The translations under genes were made by a program, and so were the position numbers. This document shows, in pieces, positions 4,418 through 45,963 of a stretch of 45,963 nucleotides of DNA. The stretch spans positions 1-45,963 of the IMG/VR virus record IMGVR_UViG_3300042503_001859; one strand, 5' to 3'. The notes under the pieces were generated by a model, which saw nothing but the letters and a program-made list of their open reading frames with translations, made no database searches and was not told the DNA's origin. This stretch comes from a virus. Within the stretch, counting starts at the first letter, position 1. Every line of letters begins with the position of its first letter.

Positions 4418-4425
4418 TATTTATA
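4418..4425 (-). promoter_or_regulatory. Consensus T4-type late promoter for gp23
   Basis: Exact TATAAATA on the minus strand in the 69-base gap between gp22 and gp23, about 50 bases before the gp23 ATG. T4 late promoters consist of this single -10-like element, recognised by the gp55 sigma factor with the sliding clamp. Confidence 0.82.
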
Positions 4426-20071: not shown

Positions 20072-20278
20072 TTAGTAGTTACCGCAATTAATGGTTAGAC
20101 CATTACGTTCTATAATATTAGAAGCAACCCAAGCCCCAACAGTGGCATCATATTGTAAAAGGGCTCCATGCTGAGCATTTAATGCATCGACATCACTTAA
20201 TGATGAAATTTTTTGTGCTGCATTTTGTGCAACAGTTATTACTTGTGGCTGATTTGAAACCGTTACTTTTGTTTTCAT
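20072..20278 (-). CDS. Small virion-associated protein, unknown
   Basis: 68 aa, no family recognised. Residues include KVTVSNQPQVITVAQNAAQK followed by ISSLSDVDALNAQHGALLQY and GAWVASNI. The latter two resemble the short phrase that precedes the C-terminal part of many phage fibre proteins (a L.DV... GALL.YDA..GAWVA pattern), so this looks like a detached fibre segment or a small fibre partner. It overlaps the upstream 110-aa gene by 4 bases and precedes the large fibre gene by 18 bases, suggesting the three are made together. Confidence 0.6.
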   Translation of the reverse strand: MKTKVTVSNQPQVITVAQNAAQKISSLSDVDALNAQHGALLQYDATVGAWVASNIIERNGLTINCGNY

Positions 20279-20607
20279 GTTACTCCAGGATTGATAGTAA
20301 CAATTCCCTCTATTACCCTAGTTTTTTTACCAACAGAATTGGTAAGAACTACATCATATAGATATCTTCCTTGCTCTAACGCAGAGGTTTGAGAAGAAGA
20401 CAATTCAAGAATTACAGTTCCAGTAGTTCTAACAACAGCAAAAGATACCGTAAAGTTGACCGAAGTTGTGCTATAATAAGATTTTCTTATTTTAGCTTGA
20501 CCAGTGTACCCAGTTAAATTCCACGGATTGTTATCATCATCATAAATTGTGATCTGAGCATTGAAATCAGAGCCCTGGTCAACATACAGATTTTTTACAG
20601 CTGCCAT
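20275..20607 (-). CDS. Small beta-sandwich structural protein, BppU-N-like
   Basis: 110 aa. The order DQGSDFNAQITIYDDDNNPW, LTGYTGQAKIRKSY, TVILELSSSQTSALEQGRYLYDVVLT and TRVIEGIVTINPGVT follows the pattern of the immunoglobulin-like N-terminal domain of phage baseplate upper proteins (strands ending in LTG and a closing GxVTINPGVT). It is therefore likely a virion component supporting the adjacent fibre. The family link is pattern recognition only. A consensus late promoter lies 8 bases upstream, giving a very short leader, with a second copy 25 bases further. Confidence 0.6.
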   Translation of the reverse strand: MAAVKNLYVDQGSDFNAQITIYDDDNNPWNLTGYTGQAKIRKSYYSTTSVNFTVSFAVVRTTGTVILELSSSQTSALEQGRYLYDVVLTNSVGKKTRVIEGIVTINPGVT

Positions 20608-20614
20608 TTAAAAA

Positions 20615-20622
20615 TATTTATA
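20615..20622 (-). promoter_or_regulatory. Consensus late promoter, proximal copy
   Basis: TATAAATA on the minus strand, 8 bases before the 110-aa gene's ATG. It is so close that a transcript from it would be nearly leaderless, so the distal copy may be the functional one. Confidence 0.55.
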
Positions 20623-20639: not shown

Positions 20640-20647
20640 TATTTATA
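20640..20647 (-). promoter_or_regulatory. Consensus late promoter, distal copy
   Basis: A second exact TATAAATA on the minus strand, 33 bases before the 110-aa ATG and just after the NblA-like ORF. It lies in the loop of an inverted repeat (AGGTCT 20628-20633 with AGACCT 20651-20656). Confidence 0.72.
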
Positions 20648-20664: not shown

Positions 20665-20823
20665 CTATTTTTTTATGAGTAAATTCATAACTACATGCTG
20701 CTGCATATGATATAATCTAGCAAATTCCTTTGCTATTTTTTTAGCGTCCTCTTCGTTTAATGTGTCTATATCATTATAAATTTTTTGAAGAGTAAACTGT
20801 TTAGTTAGAGGTAGTTCGTTCAT
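20665..20823 (-). CDS. NblA-like small protein (phycobilisome degradation adaptor candidate)
   Basis: 52 aa, beginning at the ATG 20823-20821 inside the end of the preceding gene and ending at TAG 20667-20665. It is mostly helical: MNELPLTKQFTLQKIYNDID then TLNEEDAKKIAKEFARLYHM and QQHVVMNLLIKK. It lines up without gaps with the NblA pattern as I remember it: L.L..QF.L, a hydrophobic at +7, L..E.A, E..R and a C-terminal LL near a lysine. NblA (about 55-65 aa) tethers phycobilisomes to the Clp protease; freshwater cyanophages and some uncultured marine ones carry nblA. The lysine reported to contact the antenna is isoleucine here, followed by KK. The match is by eye, and a small tail-assembly helix pair is the alternative. 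Confidence 0.5.
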   Translation of the reverse strand: MNELPLTKQFTLQKIYNDIDTLNEEDAKKIAKEFARLYHMQQHVVMNLLIKK

Positions 20824-21034
20824 TTAATTTTAGTAGCAAAGATTTAATTTCAGCCAATTCAGTTTTTAAATTATGTAGATCAGTTTCAATGTTATCAATT
20901 TTTTGAAATTTATTCTGTCTCATTTGATAACTTTTCATATAAGTTTCATACTCATATGTACTGTCATTTATTATAGCACCACTTTCAGTATCTCGGTATA
21001 ACCCTGGATGTCCATCTACCATTATTTTTGCCAT
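20801..21034 (-). CDS. Conserved small phage protein with C-terminal coiled coil
   Basis: 77 aa from the ATG at 21034; a longer frame would start at a TTG at 21049 inside the preceding gene. N-terminal MAKIMVDGHPGLYRDTESGA and IINDSTYEYETYMKSYQMRQ suggest a small beta hairpin followed by a helix; the last 35 residues (IDNIETDLHNLKTELAEIKS) are a leucine-heptad coiled coil. No named family recognised. It overlaps the start of the NblA-like ORF by 23 bases and begins 5 bases after the DUF4815 gene's stop codon, so it is part of the same late transcript. It may be a baseplate or fibre accessory. Confidence 0.65.
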   Translation of the reverse strand: MAKIMVDGHPGLYRDTESGAIINDSTYEYETYMKSYQMRQNKFQKIDNIETDLHNLKTELAEIKSLLLKLNERTTSN

Positions 21035-21038
21035 ATTT

Positions 21039-24000
21039 TTAGACCGCAAGTGAAATAGCTCTAAAGTTTCTAATTTTTATATTATTGGTTTGATCGTCAC
21101 TTATCATACAAACTTTGATGCTGTATTCTTTAAACTCGGATATTCCAGACAATTCAAATTCAAATGCCCTATAATCATTTGAATTTGCAGACTTTGGATA
21201 TGTTATTGCAGGAACTTCTACATAGCCAGTCTCATTAAATTTACCTAAATTGCCATCACCTAAAGTTCTAACGAATACTTTGATATCAGAATAGTTGCCA
21301 TTAAGTCCTTGTGTTCTGACGGCATCTAAGAATACTTTAACTGATGTGGATACACCTTGTAAAGTAACTTTCTTTGTTATGTATGATGAGTAGAATCCAG
21401 ATGAAGGAGTCAACTCTGCAGATACATCAGTGGTATTATTGAGAAGTTTTTTACTTAATCTATTTGAAACAGTATTGATTGAAGAACCATATAATTCTAA
21501 TACAGGACTTACGTTATCCAGTTCACTAGACATATTCACATTTAATTTTAATGTATGTGGATATCCTGGGAAATAAACTGATGTGTTTGGTGCAGATGCA
21601 ATTAATCTAGATGTATTCATTCTAGAATACTGCTTATTTTCAACAGATTCTTGATTAAGTTGTGCAAATGAGTTTGCTGATCCATATAGAGGGCTTCCAG
21701 TAATACTGGATAATGTCATTGAAATATTTGTGGATGGGAGTACTAAACTGTTTAGATCTGGGTATAATTCTTCGTATTGAATATTTCTAGATGCTTTTAC
21801 AACATCACCACCAGTTCTCAATTCAGAAGATGACTTGCTTACGGTTGAAATTTTATAGTTATCAAAGTCAATAACTTCAGTTATTTTATGAACTTTATTG
21901 ATCTCAATTAGTGGAATTCCATTTAAAGAATAACACATCACAATTGAATTAATCGCATGTGGAGTTGCAGTTGTTCCGTTAAGTCCTCTTTCTGTTATAG
22001 TTAATGTATTTCCCGATTTTGCTGTATATTTCATAATTTCATTATTAATCATTACATAACCAGGATTTGATGCACTTACTGGAGATCCATTAATAGTTTC
22101 CCATGTAGTAGATGCTGCAGTACCCACTGTAATATTTCCAGTAAATGATGCAGTTGGAATAGATGTATTTAAAGTTGTTGTAGGTGCATCTGAAGATACA
22201 TTTGAAATTTTTACATAATTTTGAGTAGTGTGCATACAATGATTTGGATGGAACACTTCAATAGTTGTTGAATTTGAATATAGTTTTAATGGATTTTGAA
22301 TGAGATTTACATCTGGCACTAAATCATTATTTAATACACATGTATAAGTTGAGTTTGTATTAAATTTTGCTCTATTCATCACAAACTTAACATCTTCAAA
22401 TTGATCAGGTGACCAAGTAGACATATTTTGAGATTTGAAGAGAGAGCCAGAATATGGTTGTTTATCAATAGCATATGAAGTAGTTACGTCTTGTTCACCA
22501 AGCCTTGAAATCCACATCTTATATAATTTAGAATCACTTCTTACAATAAACGCATAATAAGTACCTTGATTTAAATAAACTAATGATGGGAATGTGAATT
22601 TAGTTGCTAATGATGCATCGTTAGAAACCTTCACATCAGCTGGTTTTACAATAGAAATAGAATTTGGAACTACTGTATTTGTAATAGTGCCATTTTCCAT
22701 TGTTCGTATTTCTACAGATACTGGAGTTGATGAATCTTTTGATTGGAAATATAAATCAATTGAAGATAAAAATACTCCACCCTCTGAACTAATAAAGAAA
22801 GATTGTGCTACTGGGTCTGGTCCTGGTGCAGGTCCTGGAGGAGCTGGTGGTGGTGGTGGGAATGGGATAAACTGTACTGTAGTTCCTCTAATTGGGCCAG
22901 ATGAAATTTCTGGTAAATCTAGAGACAATACATTACTAGTCAAGTTTACAGTAGTTCCCAGTGTATCATAAGTGGTAACCGCACTAGTTTCAGCTATACC
23001 ATATATTGAAGTGCCAGTAATTTGATCGCAAAGTTTAATTGATAGTTTTCCAGTTTCAAAAGTTTCGGGTGGAATAATTACAAAAGCTTCTAATGCACCA
23101 GTTGCAGTTGTTTTTACTCTATTTGAATTAACTAAAGTTACTTTTCCAACAGCCCCAGAAGTTTCCCCAATAACATAATACGTTGATCCTAATATAATTG
23201 GGTTTAATTGAGTTGTATCTACTGTAGTTGGTGGTTGTATTGATAGATATGTACTTGATGAAGTATATTGTCCTAGAGGAGAACTCATAACAACTGATTC
23301 TATAATGTTTGACTCTGCTGGACTAAGTACTGTATTTCTATTGGATAAGTATACAGTTTCTCCAACTACAAAAGCACCTGATCTTTCAGTCATATCAACC
23401 ATATCAAGTGGGAATATCATTTCATCGTGTAAAATTTCATCTACAAATAAATGCATTACAGTATTAGCTTTTAGTTTTGCAGCTTGTAGATATAATAATC
23501 TAGAGCGAACAAATCTATTCACTTGAATACTGTTAATACTATCCCCAACTTCAATATCTTGAGTAAACGTTGCAAATGTATTATCAACAGATCCAGTCTG
23601 AGATACTTGTAAAGTTCCGCCTCTAACTGCAAGTGTTGGGACTATATTTCTATTCCAATTATTCCATTGATCTGCAAGTGCTGTAGTACGATCAAATAAA
23701 GCTCTAAATGGTTCGGATAGATCTAGTTGCTGAGTGTTAGTTTCTGTTCTAACTGTATCAAACCAAACATCTTTGTTTGGTACAAGATTAATCTCTCCAT
23801 TCCAAGAAATAACTTCAAACGGCTGTAGATTTTCTACTCTACTTGCATAAGTTTGACTAATATATTCAGTTTCGGTGTATGGAAGAGTTACAAATGCTCC
23901 CATTTTTTTGGTAGTTGAAACGTCATCATAAGTTACTCCAAGCTTGGTAGCATATGGGTATGGTCTTACTAATGCATTTTCTGTATCTATAGATGCAGTA

Positions 24001-27000
24001 TATCTGACGTTATTTAAATCTGCAAAATCAGTAGTTTTAAAATTATCGGCAATAAATCCAGTCTTGAATCTATTATTACCAAATTCATCCAATACTAACA
24101 GACTGTTAGTTCCAACTTCTAGTAAATTTAAAGAAGTTAAGTTTTCTACTGTTTCTAATCTCTTGTCAATACTTGAGATATCTTTCATAGTATATCTCTT
24201 TAGCTGATTGACAGTAATGCCAGCAGAACTCACATCCTTCATATATGGAGGAATAGTCACTGTAGCTAATAGTAAAGAGTTTTGTACTTCTTGAGGTTCC
24301 TGTGGGAAATTAGACTCTGAACCTTTCAATACTAATAGATTATTATTTTCATCTAGGAAAATTTTATCAATTCTGCCTAAGAAATAATCATAGTCTGCAC
24401 TTATAATTTCTCCTGGGTAGGTAAATGTAGAAACTGGCCTGTTTGCTAAGTTTGAGTATATATCAAATACAGAATTGGATTCTACAAATGGAGATCCTAA
24501 AGTTCCACTAGTTCCAGTAGTTGATGAAGGTGAAGTTTCATATCTAAAATCTACAATATCAGTATAAGCAATTCCATTATATGTTGAAGGAATACTAGAG
24601 AAATTTTCTTCCTCGTAATTATATGAATTTGCAGTATAAAAATCGTTGGATGTGTTTGAATGGATATAATAATCAAAAATTACAATAAATTTGTTTGTTG
24701 GAACTGGTCTACCTTCATTTCTCACTAATTTGGAAATATTATAAAACTCAGTAGAATCATTCTTAACTAAATTGAAGTTATTTGTGATGTCTCTGTAGTT
24801 TCCATTAGTCGCAGAAGTAACAAATTTTCCTTGAATATTAGATGACCCAGCAACTACAATTTCAATTGGCTGACTTGGATTGGTTGGGAATTTACTTGAT
24901 GACAGGTATTTGATATAAAGAGTGTTTCCACTGATAGAAAGTACTTTTGCACTAATACCTTCATGATATATCATATTACCAGCTACTATCTGGTTGGAAT
25001 TATTAACTACTACACTATCAAGTAAATTTGTAAGTGCATCAGATGAAGAAATAGCTTCATGTATAGCATGAATTCTATATACGTCTGAAAACTTTAGTGA
25101 AATCTCTTTATCAGATACTCTAGTTCCATACTTAGTATTACTAGAATTTTTTTGCTTATCTACCAATAAATGAGTAAATTTATTGGAGGTCTTTGTTTTT
25201 AATGTTGGATTATTAACTCTTACTTTATATGTAACTAATACAGAAGAACCAATTAAAGTGCTGGATACAATTAAGCCAATACTATTTGATTGGGATGTTG
25301 GACTTATTGTATAAGAAACAATTCCAGATGAATTAGTTACTCCAATATCTCCAGTGGAAATTGAAAAATCTGAAGTAGTAGAAATAGTAACACTACCTCC
25401 AGATCCTACAATTTTAGTTTCATTTACTGTTTTATAGTATGATAAATCTGACGTAGTTTTGACAGTATTTGGGAATGCAGAAAAGAAATTATTTCCGAAA
25501 GTTTTTAATTTTGGTACTAATTTCTTTACAGAGTAATAAGTTCCATTGGATACACTTCCTGAAGGTAGTGTAATAGACTCTCCTGCAATTGAAGATATTG
25601 TTGAAATCGTTGTTCCAATCAATAATTTCATTGAAACTTTTACATCTTTTGAAAAATTAGTGGATACTCCAGTTAAAACATTGGCGGTTACTCCAAAAGA
25701 AGATCCAGAAATAGAAACTTCTTCAAGTTCTAATTCTGCCAACGCTCCCCCAGAAGTTGAAATTGAAGTTATGTTTTCAATTGAATTATTATCTGCTACA
25801 TCTATGGTGTATACTTCTGAGTTGTTGCTATTTGTAAATGTAACTCCTTTTGTAAAATCTCCAGTAGTTTGTCTTAATGTAATTACATTTCCATTAACTC
25901 CATGGACAACTGCTTGAGACCCACCAGAACTAAAGATGAAATCTCCTACAGCTAAACTTGGAGTAGCTTGAAGTGTTGTGATAATTGAAAACATTGTTAT
26001 ATCACAAACAAATAATCTGCCACCAGAAATCAATCCTAGGGATCTACATTGTCCGATTTGAGTTCCTGATCGTAATAGCTGAATATTAGCGCCAGTTGGA
26101 AATATTCCACTGATAGTGTTTACTTTTAGTGTGAAATAATTGCCAAAAATTGATGATATTCCTTGATTATTTAAGGATAGTGAAGATCTTGGTTTATCTA
26201 CTGTTAAATATTTTTTACTGGTGTTATTAACTTCAAATCCTTTTACATATGCTTTGAGTGGATCTAGTTCAATAGTATAATGATCTAATCCATTTATAGC
26301 ATTACCATCTTCTGCGGTTGGAGTTCTATTTAATACTTTTTTGCCGTCTGGAAGACTATCATTTAAATTATATACTCCATTGTTTTGGCCATTATTATAA
26401 GTTTCACGAATTCTTAAATTAATATCATTAATTGTATAATTTCCAGATTCATCATAAGTTCTTCTAGCTAGATTTTTTTCTAGCTCATCATATACTGAAA
26501 TTTGAACTTGCTCTACTAATTTCCCGCTATTAAGTCTAAGTAATTCTATGAAAGAAGAATCGGAACCAAAATTAATATCTTGTTTAGTTAATACTGCATC
26601 TATTTTTAGTCTGTCTGCACCAGGAGCAGTGTAATTTGAAGAACCAACTGCATTATCATATAAAGTAGAATCTGTCTCGGCGCTTACGATAGATTCTTGA
26701 ACAGATAAGCCGATTTTATATGAAGGGAAGTTTGAATATTGATCTAGAATTATAGTTTGAGCTGGAACATTTACAAAAAATCCTCTAATAAAATATACCC
26801 CTTCAGTGATAAATGCAGCACTTCCAACATAATCTGTAGCACCTTGAGTGATGGTAACTGCTACAGGATTGTTAAATTCATCTACTAGTGTTTCTCCACT
26901 TGAGAATTTAGTAAATTGAACACCGTTGATAATATTTCCAGATGAAGTATATTTTACGTAAAGTGTTGGTGTTGATTTTTCTGATTCATCTGCACCAATA

Positions 27001-27338
27001 CTGTTTACTACAGTAGCTACTACATTTGTAGTTAAACCTCTAATATTTTTCCCAACTAAATTTGCTCTAATAGTTTCAAAATTAATAGAATTTACTGTAG
27101 GTTGTACTAGAACAGCAGAATATTGAACATTATACCCAGTTTGGCCAGGAATAACTACAGATCCATCTTTAAATACATGTTGCCCAAATTTTTCAATTTG
27201 ATCTTGTAAAATTGACTGAAGGGTTGTTAGCTCTCTAGCCTGAACAGGATAGTTTGGCTTGAATAATACCTTATAGAATTTTTTACCTGGATCAAAATCA
27301 TCAAAGTATGGTTGCAAACTAAGATCTGTATTTTGCAT
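21039..27338 (-). CDS. Giant DUF4815-type baseplate/tail structural protein
   Basis: 2099 aa. The N-terminus is the DUF4815 signature: YFDDFDPGKKFYKVLFKPNY, VQARELTTLQSILQDQIEKF and GQHVFKDGSVVIPGQTGYNV. A second family block follows a Pro-rich hinge (FPPPPPAPPGPAPGPDP, about residues 1490-1510): QSFFISSEGGVFLSSIDLYF, TPVSVEIRTMENG, YAFIVRSDSKLYKMWISRLG and an LFKSQNMSTWSPDQFEDVKF segment. Between them are beta-rich repeats. A later NNEIMKYTAKSGNTLTITER motif is shared with the other giant proteins here. It follows gp8, the slot of T4 gp9/gp10, so a wedge-peripheral protein anchoring fibres is likely. Confidence 0.82.
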   Translation of the reverse strand: MQNTDLSLQPYFDDFDPGKKFYKVLFKPNYPVQARELTTLQSILQDQIEKFGQHVFKDGSVVIPGQTGYNVQYSAVLVQPTVNSINFETIRANLVGKNIRGLTTNVVATVVNSIGADESEKSTPTLYVKYTSSGNIINGVQFTKFSSGETLVDEFNNPVAVTITQGATDYVGSAAFITEGVYFIRGFFVNVPAQTIILDQYSNFPSYKIGLSVQESIVSAETDSTLYDNAVGSSNYTAPGADRLKIDAVLTKQDINFGSDSSFIELLRLNSGKLVEQVQISVYDELEKNLARRTYDESGNYTINDINLRIRETYNNGQNNGVYNLNDSLPDGKKVLNRTPTAEDGNAINGLDHYTIELDPLKAYVKGFEVNNTSKKYLTVDKPRSSLSLNNQGISSIFGNYFTLKVNTISGIFPTGANIQLLRSGTQIGQCRSLGLISGGRLFVCDITMFSIITTLQATPSLAVGDFIFSSGGSQAVVHGVNGNVITLRQTTGDFTKGVTFTNSNNSEVYTIDVADNNSIENITSISTSGGALAELELEEVSISGSSFGVTANVLTGVSTNFSKDVKVSMKLLIGTTISTISSIAGESITLPSGSVSNGTYYSVKKLVPKLKTFGNNFFSAFPNTVKTTSDLSYYKTVNETKIVGSGGSVTISTTSDFSISTGDIGVTNSSGIVSYTISPTSQSNSIGLIVSSTLIGSSVLVTYKVRVNNPTLKTKTSNKFTHLLVDKQKNSSNTKYGTRVSDKEISLKFSDVYRIHAIHEAISSSDALTNLLDSVVVNNSNQIVAGNMIYHEGISAKVLSISGNTLYIKYLSSSKFPTNPSQPIEIVVAGSSNIQGKFVTSATNGNYRDITNNFNLVKNDSTEFYNISKLVRNEGRPVPTNKFIVIFDYYIHSNTSNDFYTANSYNYEEENFSSIPSTYNGIAYTDIVDFRYETSPSSTTGTSGTLGSPFVESNSVFDIYSNLANRPVSTFTYPGEIISADYDYFLGRIDKIFLDENNNLLVLKGSESNFPQEPQEVQNSLLLATVTIPPYMKDVSSAGITVNQLKRYTMKDISSIDKRLETVENLTSLNLLEVGTNSLLVLDEFGNNRFKTGFIADNFKTTDFADLNNVRYTASIDTENALVRPYPYATKLGVTYDDVSTTKKMGAFVTLPYTETEYISQTYASRVENLQPFEVISWNGEINLVPNKDVWFDTVRTETNTQQLDLSEPFRALFDRTTALADQWNNWNRNIVPTLAVRGGTLQVSQTGSVDNTFATFTQDIEVGDSINSIQVNRFVRSRLLYLQAAKLKANTVMHLFVDEILHDEMIFPLDMVDMTERSGAFVVGETVYLSNRNTVLSPAESNIIESVVMSSPLGQYTSSSTYLSIQPPTTVDTTQLNPIILGSTYYVIGETSGAVGKVTLVNSNRVKTTATGALEAFVIIPPETFETGKLSIKLCDQITGTSIYGIAETSAVTTYDTLGTTVNLTSNVLSLDLPEISSGPIRGTTVQFIPFPPPPPAPPGPAPGPDPVAQSFFISSEGGVFLSSIDLYFQSKDSSTPVSVEIRTMENGTITNTVVPNSISIVKPADVKVSNDASLATKFTFPSLVYLNQGTYYAFIVRSDSKLYKMWISRLGEQDVTTSYAIDKQPYSGSLFKSQNMSTWSPDQFEDVKFVMNRAKFNTNSTYTCVLNNDLVPDVNLIQNPLKLYSNSTTIEVFHPNHCMHTTQNYVKISNVSSDAPTTTLNTSIPTASFTGNITVGTAASTTWETINGSPVSASNPGYVMINNEIMKYTAKSGNTLTITERGLNGTTATPHAINSIVMCYSLNGIPLIEINKVHKITEVIDFDNYKISTVSKSSSELRTGGDVVKASRNIQYEELYPDLNSLVLPSTNISMTLSSITGSPLYGSANSFAQLNQESVENKQYSRMNTSRLIASAPNTSVYFPGYPHTLKLNVNMSSELDNVSPVLELYGSSINTVSNRLSKKLLNNTTDVSAELTPSSGFYSSYITKKVTLQGVSTSVKVFLDAVRTQGLNGNYSDIKVFVRTLGDGNLGKFNETGYVEVPAITYPKSANSNDYRAFEFELSGISEFKEYSIKVCMISDDQTNNIKIRNFRAISLAV

Positions 27339-43840: not shown

Positions 43841-43952
43841 TTGAATATCTCTCTGGCTCTTTGGGTCCGGTATAGCTTAGGGTAGTTAGAGGTTTTTCAC
43901 GGCCCGGCGGGCCGGCGACCCATAAGGCCCGCTTATACTGCCCTGCCCGACT

Positions 43953-44038
43953 GATCAGGACTGCTGATGGATCAGGAATGCTGATCTGTCTTGCCACTGG
44001 CTGATAAGCAATGCTGATGGATCAGGACTGCTGATGGA
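43953..44038. repeat. Cluster of TGATCA-containing direct repeats
   Basis: The 19-base string gatcaggactgctgatgga occurs at 43953-43971 and 44020-44038, with a diverged copy (gatcaggaatgctgat) between. Further TGATCA or TGATCAG sites follow at 44064 and 44330, just after stop codons of two small ORFs. The 43841-44066 stretch contains no gene I can support. Confidence 0.8.
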
Positions 44039-44039
44039 A

Positions 44040-44058
44040 GGGGGAGGCTGGCTCCCCC
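44040..44058 (-). terminator. GC hairpin after the 65-aa gene
   Basis: Stem GGGGGAG/CTCCCCC (44040-44046 with 44052-44058), 5-base loop, 8 bases past the gene's stop. Only two T residues follow on the minus strand, so termination is uncertain. Confidence 0.5.
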
Positions 44059-44066
44059 GTTGCTGA

Positions 44067-44264
44067 TCACCAGCCTGTTTTCACCCGCTTGCCTGACCAG
44101 CTAGCAGCGGCAGCGTACTCAACAGCGAAGCGGTCAATATCCCACACGTTGGCCTTGGCACGCTCAGCCGCACAGCGTGCCAGGTTGATCTGATCAAACA
44201 GGCCAAGCTTCTTAGGTGCCCGATACAGAGTGCCAGCGGCTGAACAGATAGTGGAGTCGATCAT
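44067..44264 (-). CDS. 65-aa unknown protein, GC-rich array
   Basis: From the ATG at 44264; a longer frame would need a GTG within the promoter region. Sequence starts MIDSTICSAAGTLYRAPKKL and ends AAAASWSGKRVKTGW. It looks helical, with a LFDQINLARCAAERAKANVW segment. No family recognised. Codon use strongly favours G/C in third position, unlike the phage block. The stop is followed by TGATCAGCAA and a GC hairpin, a layout repeated after the next gene. Confidence 0.55.
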   Translation of the reverse strand: MIDSTICSAAGTLYRAPKKLGLFDQINLARCAAERAKANVWDIDRFAVEYAAAASWSGKRVKTGW

Positions 44265-44301
44265 GGGTCGTTGGTGGTTACTTGAGAATCTTAGCACGGA
44301 T

Positions 44302-44322
44302 GGGGCCAGGCTGGCTGGCCCC
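44302..44322 (-). other. Intergenic GC hairpin
   Basis: Stem GGGGCCAG/CTGGCCCC (44302-44309 with 44315-44322), 5-base loop, between the 74-aa and 65-aa genes. TAAGAT (44293-44288) on the minus strand 9 bases downstream is a possible -10 for the 65-aa gene. Confidence 0.6.
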
Positions 44323-44330
44323 TTTGCTGA

Positions 44331-44555
44331 TCAGTCAGCTGCCGCAGCCGCCAGCAGTTCGGCGATGTGATCAAATCGGGCCCACGCTGCCTTGCCCACG
44401 GCGCTGCAGCCGCTGGCGGTGAGATCGGGCCGGCGACCCTCTACGGCATCCCGCCAGAGGCTGTGCCAGCGGGTAGCGGCGTCAGCTAGCTGGCTTTGCA
44501 GCTGGCGGGCCTCGGTGAGGCTGAGGGTGAGGGTGATAGTGGGTTCGGTGGCCAT
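44331..44555 (-). CDS. 74-aa unknown protein, GC-rich array
   Basis: Begins MATEPTITLTLSLTEARQLQ and continues SQLADAATRWHSLWRDAVEG. Predicted two-helix protein with a leucine-rich amphipathic first helix and an alanine-rich end (AELLAAAAAD). It starts with the CCAGCACCATG leader shared by its neighbours, but no -10 or -35 is clear, so it may be co-transcribed with the 61-aa gene. No family recognised. Confidence 0.55.
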   Translation of the reverse strand: MATEPTITLTLSLTEARQLQSQLADAATRWHSLWRDAVEGRRPDLTASGCSAVGKAAWARFDHIAELLAAAAAD

Positions 44556-44593
44556 GGTGCTGGTGTGGTGTGGTTGATCGGTGGAAGTGGAAG

Positions 44594-44613
44594 GGGAGGC
44601 CCGGAGGCCTCCC
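44594..44613 (-). other. Intergenic GC hairpin
   Basis: Stem GGGAGGCC/GGCCTCCC (44594-44601 with 44606-44613), 4-base loop, 9 bases past the 61-aa gene's stop. It occupies the same place in the cassette as the hairpins at 44870 and 45246. Confidence 0.65.
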
Positions 44614-44622
44614 GTGTGGGGC

Positions 44623-44808
44623 TCAATCCCACCAGTCGTTGGACTGCTGCAGCTCAGCTACAAGGTCTGCGAGGGCCATCCCCCAGTAGGCGTAGCGGGT
44701 GCCCTTGTGGGTCACCAGCCAGATCTGCTCGGCGCCAAGCATGGCGCCAGCAGCGACCCGCTCCACTCCAAGAGGAGCAAGGGTTGTTTGGGCTTCGGTG
44801 GTGGTCAT
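44623..44808 (-). CDS. 61-aa unknown protein, GC-rich array
   Basis: Begins MTTTEAQTTLAPLGVERVAA, with a central GAEQIWLVTHKGTRYAYWGM and a C-terminal QQSNDWWD. A short beta hairpin between two helices is suggested. It has the best-formed promoter of the array (TTGACG-18-TATAAT) and a 5' leader stem-loop. No family recognised. High G+C at third positions and the open frame support coding. Confidence 0.58.
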   Translation of the reverse strand: MTTTEAQTTLAPLGVERVAAGAMLGAEQIWLVTHKGTRYAYWGMALADLVAELQQSNDWWD

Positions 44809-44824
44809 GGTGCTGGTGGGTTGT

Positions 44825-44844
44825 GCGGGGTCCGTTTGCCCCGC
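44825..44844 (-). ncRNA. Leader stem-loop at the 5' end of the 61-aa gene's message
   Basis: Stem GCGGGG/CCCCGC (44825-44830 with 44839-44844), 8-base loop, ending 16 bases before the ATG. Two other array genes have the same element with different, compensated bases, which supports an RNA structure. Confidence 0.6.
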
Positions 44845-44852
44845 TTGAAAGA

Positions 44853-44882
44853 ATTATAGAGGGTGGAAGGGCCAGCCGTCAA
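44853..44882 (-). promoter_or_regulatory. Sigma70-type promoter of the 61-aa gene
   Basis: Minus strand TTGACG (44882-44877), 18-base spacer, TATAAT (44858-44853). The predicted start puts the leader stem-loop at the very 5' end of the transcript. Confidence 0.75.
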
Positions 44883-44892
44883 GCAGCTGGCC
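44870..44892 (-). other. Hairpin enclosing the -35 box, 61-aa gene
   Basis: Stem GGCCAGC/GCTGGCC (44870-44876 with 44886-44892); the 9-base loop contains the -35 hexamer. It is also 8 bases past the preceding gene's stop, so it may act as terminator, operator or both. Confidence 0.65.
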
Positions 44893-44900
44893 TGTATGGG

Positions 44901-45185
44901 TTACCAATCGCTGGGGTCGTACTGATCACAGAGCCAGTCGGCCCGCTCAGCTTCTGTCATTGGCCTAGTGAGGCTGAGCGGGCCGCAGGCCCAGATCTCA
45001 GCTTCCTCGCCTTGCTCAACCGGGCAGGCCCAGCTGAGAATCAGCCCAGAAGGGAGATACAGCCAGCCCCTGGTGGGCTGGTTTGCCTTGGTATCCACGT
45101 AGAGCCAGTGGATCACGGTTTGAAACTTAGGGGGGAGCTGGAGCTGGCCCACGGTGCAAGGGGTGAACAGGTCAGCGGTTTGCAT
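44901..45185 (-). CDS. 94-aa unknown protein, GC-rich array
   Basis: Start set at the ATG 45185, which follows the shared CCAGCACC leader; an in-frame ATG at 45209 lies in the leader stem and is rejected. Begins MQTADLFTPCTVGQLQLPPK and includes ILSWACPVEQGEEAEIWACG near residues 50-70 and ERADWLCDQYDPSDW at the end. Rich in Trp, Cys and Pro, so a compact fold, possibly metal-binding. No family recognised. Confidence 0.58.
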   Translation of the reverse strand: MQTADLFTPCTVGQLQLPPKFQTVIHWLYVDTKANQPTRGWLYLPSGLILSWACPVEQGEEAEIWACGPLSLTRPMTEAERADWLCDQYDPSDW

Positions 45186-45201
45186 GGTGCTGGTGGGTTG
45201 T

Positions 45202-45220
45202 GGGGGCATCTCTGGCCCCC
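45202..45220 (-). ncRNA. Leader stem-loop at the 5' end of the 94-aa gene's message
   Basis: Stem GGGGGC/GCCCCC (45202-45207 with 45215-45220), 7-base loop, 16 bases before the ATG. Equivalent to the element at 44825 with compensatory changes. Confidence 0.6.
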
Positions 45221-45229
45221 GTGATCACA

Positions 45230-45259
45230 ATTGTAGAGGGTGGAAGGGGCAGCCGTCAA
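45230..45259 (-). promoter_or_regulatory. Sigma70-type promoter of the 94-aa gene
   Basis: Minus strand TTGACG (45259-45254), 18-base spacer, TACAAT (45235-45230), matching the 61-aa gene's promoter in spacing and in the CCCTTCCACCCTC spacer sequence. Confidence 0.75.
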
Positions 45260-45267
45260 GCTGCCCC
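45246..45267 (-). other. Hairpin whose loop is exactly the -35 hexamer
   Basis: Stem GGGGCAGC/GCTGCCCC (45246-45253 with 45260-45267); the 6-base loop is the -35 box of the 94-aa gene. It starts 7 bases past the 107-aa gene's stop. Confidence 0.7.
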
Positions 45268-45274
45268 GTAGGGG

Positions 45275-45598
45275 TCAGACCGTGGCGTTGCGATCCTGGC
45301 TCCAATCACGCAGGCGGCGGGTGCTGGCCTTGCTGAACACCCGGTCCCCGATAGTGGTGCCATCGGCCAGGGTGATTACAGAGCGCCCAGCGGCGTCAGC
45401 CGCTATCTGCAGAGCCTGACGGCCCAGCTTGCGTTCCTCGGGAAGGGCTGTCTCGCTGGTAGCCAGATCGAACAGCCACTGGGCACGGTGGCGGCCCACG
45501 ATGGTGGGTTCCTTGATGGTGCGACGGGCCAGGGCCACCGCCACGATGGTGGGGATGCTGGTACGGGTGAGGCGGTCAGAGCGGTTGGGGTTTGCCAT
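45275..45598 (-). CDS. 107-aa unknown protein, GC-rich array
   Basis: Begins MANPNRSDRLTRTSIPTIVA and includes AQWLFDLATSETALPEERKL and LADGTTIGDRVFSKASTRRL. Basic overall, helical N-terminal two-thirds, with a short strand pair near the end; composition would suit nucleic-acid binding, but no motif is recognised. It has a leader stem-loop and a TACACT -10 (45646-45641), with a poor -35. Confidence 0.58.
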   Translation of the reverse strand: MANPNRSDRLTRTSIPTIVAVALARRTIKEPTIVGRHRAQWLFDLATSETALPEERKLGRQALQIAADAAGRSVITLADGTTIGDRVFSKASTRRLRDWSQDRNATV

Positions 45599-45612
45599 GT
45601 TCCTGGGGGTGT

Positions 45613-45632
45613 GCGGGCTCCTGTCGGCCCGC
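45613..45632 (-). ncRNA. Leader stem-loop at the 5' end of the 107-aa gene's message
   Basis: Stem GCGGGC/GCCCGC (45613-45618 with 45627-45632), 8-base loop, 14 bases before the ATG. Third member of the leader family; upstream, GACCC/GGGTC (45658-45662 with 45670-45674) is the matching promoter hairpin. Confidence 0.58.
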
Positions 45633-45697
45633 TTGAGATAAGTGTAAGGGATGGGGGGACCCTAGCTATGGGTCAGGCCCCGGATTGTTGCAATCTG

Positions 45698-45963
45698 TCA
45701 CACTGACGGCAACCCAGCAACCCAGGCTGCTGCAGCCGCCAAGCTGGAGAACTCAGCTCCCACGCTGGGGCATTGCCAGACGCTGAAGCAGCGGCGCTCC
45801 CATTGGCCGCTGTCGTTGTGGTCGTATGGAGCGTCGACCATAACGCTCACAACCTGATCCACTCGGATCAAGTGAACCCAGCCACGGCGGCCCCTGATGG
45901 CGGCCTGCCAGTCCCGAACCCAGCGGCGCTGGCCGGGAGCTGGAGAGAAGACGGCTGGGCGGG
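45698..45963 (-). CDS. Unknown protein, 5' end beyond the window
   Basis: The frame is open from the window edge to TGA 45700-45698, at least 87 residues. It contains RRWVRDWQAAIRGRRGWVHL then IRVDQVVSVMVDAPYDHNDS and ends SSLAAAAWVAGLPSV. Tryptophan- and arginine-rich, probably a small alpha/beta protein. Same strand and composition as the rest of the array. No family recognised, and the start cannot be seen. Confidence 0.5.
   Translation of the reverse strand, partial: RPAVFSPAPGQRRWVRDWQAAIRGRRGWVHLIRVDQVVSVMVDAPYDHNDSGQWERRCFSVWQCPSVGAEFSSLAAAAAWVAGLPSV

Follow-up and report, generated by a model that had tools for sequence, protein, structure and literature searches.

NblA marks the light-harvesting antenna of cyanobacteria, the phycobilisome, for destruction. 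In cyanobacteria the protein routes the antenna to the Clp protease (review PMC7760959), and NblA is likewise borne by freshwater phages of Microcystis and Planktothrix (Ma-LMM01, MaMV-DC, PaV-LD) and by cyanopodoviruses such as S-SRP01. According to PMC9602691, a marine phage nblA expressed in S. elongatus caused phycobilin loss (Nadel et al. 2019, as cited there), and the paper also cites Gao et al. 2012 and Ou et al. 2015 for bleaching upon expression of phage NblA. The same paper describes the nblA of S-SCSM1 and seven cyanomyovirus homologues detected by HHpred, which grouped with S-TIM5 and picocyanobacterial nblA, and it cites Nadel et al. for S-TIM5 as an nblA-bearing phage. The occurrence of nblA in cyanomyoviruses is therefore already published, and the gene described here is a divergent branch of phage NblA rather than a new idea. 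On the host side, a divergent nblA-like gene is mentioned for WH8102 in PMC7439483 (citing Nadel et al. 2019). Prochlorococcus is devoid of phycobilisomes (PMC7439483).

The window, that is, the whole stretch of 45,963 nucleotides analysed here (IMG/VR record IMGVR_UViG_3300042503_001859), represents a T4-like cyanomyovirus late region whose order is reversed. A sequence-only reading had placed an NblA-like frame of 52 amino acids among its tail genes, without giving the strand, and this frame does run from ATG to stop over exactly 20665-20823 on the minus strand, with the translation MNELPLTKQFTLQKIYNDIDTLNEEDAKKIAKEFARLYHMQQHVVMNLLIKK (Table 1). The residues quoted in that reading are likewise present (L4.L6..Q9F10.L12, L22..E25.A27, E33..R36, and L48L49 ahead of K51K52), so that the N-terminal LxLxxQF signature of NblA is found in the protein. 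Relatives at 52-100% identity occur in 27 IMG/VR contigs. Among 12 distinct nucleotide versions from IMG/VR, the differences fall mostly in third codon positions (310/180/1277) and the median dN/dS is 0.065, with the same pattern outside the overlap with the upstream gene, from which it follows that the ORF is a genuine conserved coding gene under strong purifying selection. The C-terminal Leu51 and Lys53 of Anabaena NblA are the residues that contact the phycobiliprotein. A gapless alignment to that protein (offset +3) puts L48 on L51 and I50 on K53, the lysines standing at 51 and 52, and the displacement of the key lysine already suspected is thus real.

Table 1. Features around the NblA-like gene and exact late-promoter octamers in the window
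Feature	Position	Strand	Basis
NblA-like gene, 52 aa, PHROG 27081	20665..20823	minus	ORF call, PHROG 27081, PF04485, intermediate-sequence HMM, dN/dS
Upstream neighbour, 82 aa, PHROG 473 'virion structural protein'	20801..21049	minus	PHROG 473, E 3e-25
VrlC-type structural protein, 2099 aa, upstream in the same gene run	21039..27338	minus	Counterpart in S-SM2, Bellamy and S-SRM01 annotated VrlC/structural protein
Downstream neighbour, 110 aa, beta-sandwich-like	20275..20607	minus	LtfC-like PF23926, E 1.2e-4, below cut-off
TATAAATA octamer just 3' of the NblA-like stop	20640..20647	minus	Exact T4-late-promoter octamer
TATAAATA octamer ahead of the downstream gene	20615..20622	minus	Exact match
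TATAAATA octamer about 50 nt before the major capsid ORF	4418-4425	minus	Exact match

In direct searches, PF04485 is the sole Pfam match of the ORF (14.5 bits, E 0.051) and extends almost end to end, with residues 3-49 on positions 1-47 of the 50 of the model, but the score stays below the gathering cut-off of 25 bits. The profile search proposed in the sequence-only reading hence gave the expected family at a sub-threshold score, and because of this score the protein is called here NblA-like or divergent, and not a plain PF04485 member. L022, the best-scoring close relative, reaches 19.7 bits, and PF04485 is the Pfam family that matches most members (7 of 27, best E 0.0012). An NCBIfam search returned no match for the ORF, and phmmer against the PDB gave chance matches only. 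On the other hand, PHROG 27081 matches the window ORF with an E of 2.7e-7 (residues 6-47 to positions 11-53 of 59), as well as all 27 aligned family members, and this family includes gp237 of S-SCSM1 (S-SCSM1_237, annotated 'phycobilisome degradation protein (nblA)'), S-SCSM2R_118 (annotated 'NblA') and the S-TIM5 homologue.

The stronger connection comes from cyanobacterial proteins that lie between both groups. The family-wide alignment is too divergent to serve for a collection scan. When 386 cyanobacterial genomes were searched with a model built from the window clade only (A4), the three highest-ranking matches (E of 1.7e-4 to 1e-3 per genome) were proteins of 57 aa from three genomes, which have the form MSDLP(I/V)EKQFTHMMFCQQIQNI.. 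and cover model positions 1-48 of 52. These same proteins score 20-23 bits to PF04485, and a paralogue in one of the three genomes reaches 29.2 bits, above the cut-off. A canonical-only NblA HMM gives the host intermediates E values of 1e-5 to 9e-8, and in the reverse direction an HMM built on four of these intermediates detects canonical NblA with an E of about 1e-5 (6,071 ORFs). The same four-protein HMM, run over 11,913 viral ORFs, returned phage family members in all of its top 40 places, with the window ORF at E 2e-4; since these ORFs were gathered around the phage family, the top 40 represent a separation from background ORFs and not 40 independent matches. The ORF is accordingly linked to NblA through cyanobacterial intermediates in both directions, and its kinship with NblA, proposed earlier by eye, appears very probable from these sequence comparisons, by this route rather than through a direct Pfam match. 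They supersede a profile-profile comparison in which the mixed family alignment was weak (10.7% and 8.9%) and the window clade alone gave 37-58%. The bridging proteins (L139, L140, L149 and L378, in genomes G285, G349 and G196) have the form MSDLP.EKQFTHMMFCQQ.., and a similar hydrolase-like ORF lies near two of them. The best viral match of the intermediate HMM (33 bits) is an unannotated homologue in Synechococcus phage Sf-CH8 (L039, 4001-4156; also in Sf-CH5), located within a gap of the deposited annotation.

The family model matches 36 of the 386 cyanobacterial genomes (best E 8e-9), mostly of 1.7-3.7 Mb and often with 1-3 copies, and in a PF04485 scan of 194 genomes the same small genomes mostly lacked a canonical NblA match. 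Many of these host proteins differ from the phage family in an AWKQQQ-type second helix, and most of them fall below any Pfam threshold. Judging from their small genomes and from PMC7439483, the carriers are presumably picocyanobacteria, a pattern in line with the divergent nblA-like gene mentioned for WH8102, and their nblA-like genes are the likely host source pool of the phage family. The host neighbourhoods of the homologues, inspected by eye, contained no phycobilisome gene that could be recognised. A 59-column tree, in which few forks are reliable and the exact branching is not resolved, places the window clade between canonical NblA and the marine-type/picocyanobacterial branch, and S-SRP01 inside canonical NblA on a long branch. 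The cyanopodovirus type, represented in this comparison by S-SRP01, is thus probably a separate acquisition. The S-SRP01 protein (L041, 2007-2222), annotated as hypothetical, passes the Pfam NblA cut-off with 25.2 bits, and its gene overlaps an exonuclease gene.

With canonical NblA (PF04485; PDB 1OJH, 3CS5, 2Q8V) the ORF shares a gapless near full-length alignment, the LxLxxQFxL start, the C-terminal Leu and, in its predicted structure, a helical hairpin with equal borders, whereas it is about 20% identical, remains under the Pfam cut-off, has Ile for K53 with a Lys one residue later, and carries an extra conserved LYxxQQ segment. S-SCSM1 gp237 and its cyanomyovirus homologues (PMC9602691) resemble the window ORF in family, length class and T4-like cyanophage carrier; the window clade, with an identity of only about 25-42% to the others, retains LLxKK at its C-terminus and, at its N-terminus, an LPLxKQFxL that is nearer to canonical NblA, and S-SCSM1 carries its nblA at another genomic place. 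In the window clade L4, L6 and F10 are invariant and Q9 is present in 13 of 15 sequences, whereas in the wider family F10 alone of these four remains so. Position 48 is Leu in 10 of the 15 window-clade sequences and otherwise Met or Phe, while the C-terminus of the wider family is mostly not conserved, with the S-SCSM1 and S-TIM5 members ending before the C-terminal contact position.

Given the kinship with NblA, an adaptor function is quite likely by analogy, and the ORF as a whole is probably a divergent, host-derived NblA that acts as a late-made antenna-degradation adaptor of a freshwater T4-like cyanomyovirus. The protein would be made from late transcripts running through the VrlC and PHROG 473 genes, would dimerise, and would bind both the host ClpC chaperone and, through its C-terminus, a phycobiliprotein. 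The antenna would then be handed to the Clp protease, which would free amino acids and cut the light input while virions are being built. As the residues of the C-terminal contact are conserved only in part, the choice of substrate may differ. A more tentative possibility, less favoured than the simple adaptor, is that PHROG 27081 and the small-genome homologues make up a separate adaptor branch that diverged from canonical NblA, with LYxxQQ as a new conserved surface and the C-terminal Leu/Lys contact lost, which would recognise a different part of the antenna (e.g. phycoerythrin rods) or another Clp substrate and would be carried by phages of phycobilisome-bearing Synechococcus, usually at a constant position within the late virion module. 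An NblA-derived but repurposed protein is unlikely; its hairpin would dock on ClpC or a phycobiliprotein either to deliver some other substrate or to block host NblA and so protect the antenna. The phage family has invariant residues of its own (K8, F10, I19, K32, Y38 and Q42) and no conserved C-terminal Leu/Lys pair, and the small-genome cyanobacterial homologues, in 1-3 copies, are equally divergent; however, the phycobilin loss reported in S. elongatus for a marine phage nblA (Nadel et al. 2019, as cited in PMC9602691) speaks against repurposing, as do the N-terminal LxLxxQFxL signature and the mostly present C-terminal Leu retained in the window clade.

The genomic context of the antenna adaptor proposed here is suggestive of late expression. 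The large ORFs follow the order VrlC-type protein, PHROG 473 protein, NblA-like ORF, 110-aa protein (the counterpart of the S-SM2 T4-like GC 211 protein) and an 800-aa fibre-like protein, and the ORFs beyond the latter may be read as gp13 to gp23 and UvsW from their sequence, the T4-like order and annotated relatives. The NblA-like gene overlaps by 23 nt the 3' end of the PHROG 473 gene, which is listed with a TTG start and has an in-frame ATG at codon 6. The TATAAATA octamer is the consensus of T4 late promoters, and its three exact copies, the only ones in the window and below chance overall (shuffle mean 6.6), appear to be placed like such promoters. Among 111 relatives, an octamer occurs within 150 nt downstream of the gene in 30 and upstream in none, against a background of 1.6%. 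The NblA-like gene is thus the last of one gene run, just ahead of a probable late promoter, and this position together with the placement of the octamers would imply late expression.

The sequence-only reading had proposed looking for the gene at the same spot in other cyanomyoviruses, and it is indeed found there in S-SM2, Bellamy, SynMITS9220M01 and the freshwater S-SRM01. Of 203 related loci, 188 have the PHROG 473 gene immediately upstream and 123 a GC 211-type gene downstream, although these loci were gathered by similarity and the former proportion describes the clade and not all cyanophages. The 15 exceptions comprise five loci that begin immediately ahead of the gene or miss the distance limit, nine isolates with the gene elsewhere, and the podovirus S-SRP01 with its canonical-type NblA. 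Three queries gave 27, 293 and 443 IMG/VR matches, in sets that are not de-duplicated. That most relatives have the gene in this late-module slot suggests that removal of the antenna may be timed to coincide with the assembly of virions.

The same slot, very stable between virion genes in environmental contigs, and the overlap with a virion gene could instead indicate a small virion or tail-assembly protein, whose likeness to NblA would come only from both being short helical hairpins. Such a role is, however, very unlikely. In S-TIM5 the gene shares its region with PurM, tRNAs and talC; in S-SKS1, S-B05 and DSL-LC03 it is located in small-ORF regions, and in Sf-FS3 and S-SCSM1 its neighbours are 2OG-Fe(II) oxygenase or helicase genes. 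It is also accessory, being present in 25 phage records, all of them isolated on Synechococcus, as compared to the 316 records with the PHROG 473 gene, 20 of which are Prochlorococcus phages. A fixed virion context together with general presence among T4-like cyanophages, as expected of a structural gene, is therefore not what is observed. For the virion proteome of S-SCSM1, which comprises 45 proteins, the text names only three proteins with a known non-structural function, NblA not among them. An orthologue family with a virion role had been named beforehand as an outcome that would speak against NblA; the family exists, but it also occupies these non-virion contexts and has homologues in cellular cyanobacteria. 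An obligatory virion role is unlikely because of the other locations in S-TIM5, S-SKS1, S-B05 and S-SCSM1 and the 1-3 homologues in small-genome cyanobacteria.

The preferred reading, a divergent NblA, is also consistent with the predicted fold. An AF2 model built with 42 relatives (pLDDT 87.7) has helices at 6-20 and 24-50, those of a canonical Anabaena-type control being at 9-22 and 27-55, and the borders agree within two residues after the +3 offset, so that the helical hairpin anticipated for an NblA is indeed predicted. This two-helix hairpin of about 50-60 aa is nevertheless not NblA-specific by itself. Foldseek against the PDB and BFVD, and VIA-align, gave no usable match, and since Foldseek with the canonical control model also misses 1OJH, this null is uninformative either way. 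Of 19,820 shuffles of the window ORF, 24 scored as high as the ORF itself with an HMM built from 135 canonical NblA sequences, and the direct resemblance is thus above chance, suggestive but weak alone. That an unrelated small helical protein resembles NblA by chance, as this modest score and the empty Foldseek search could be taken to mean, is scarcely credible, having been largely refuted by the two-way intermediate-sequence searches.

The nblA-like genes are widespread in cyanomyovirus contigs, yet they are 'hypothetical' or unannotated because they fall under profile cut-offs. Finally, at about 44.0 kb the GC content of the window rises from 0.36 to 0.62. The GC-rich end (43920-45963) contains several short minus-strand ORFs, each after a ACCAGCACCATG-type start context, and repeats of the GATCAGCA type are present at the joint; this end has the look of a chimeric junction or of inserted foreign DNA.
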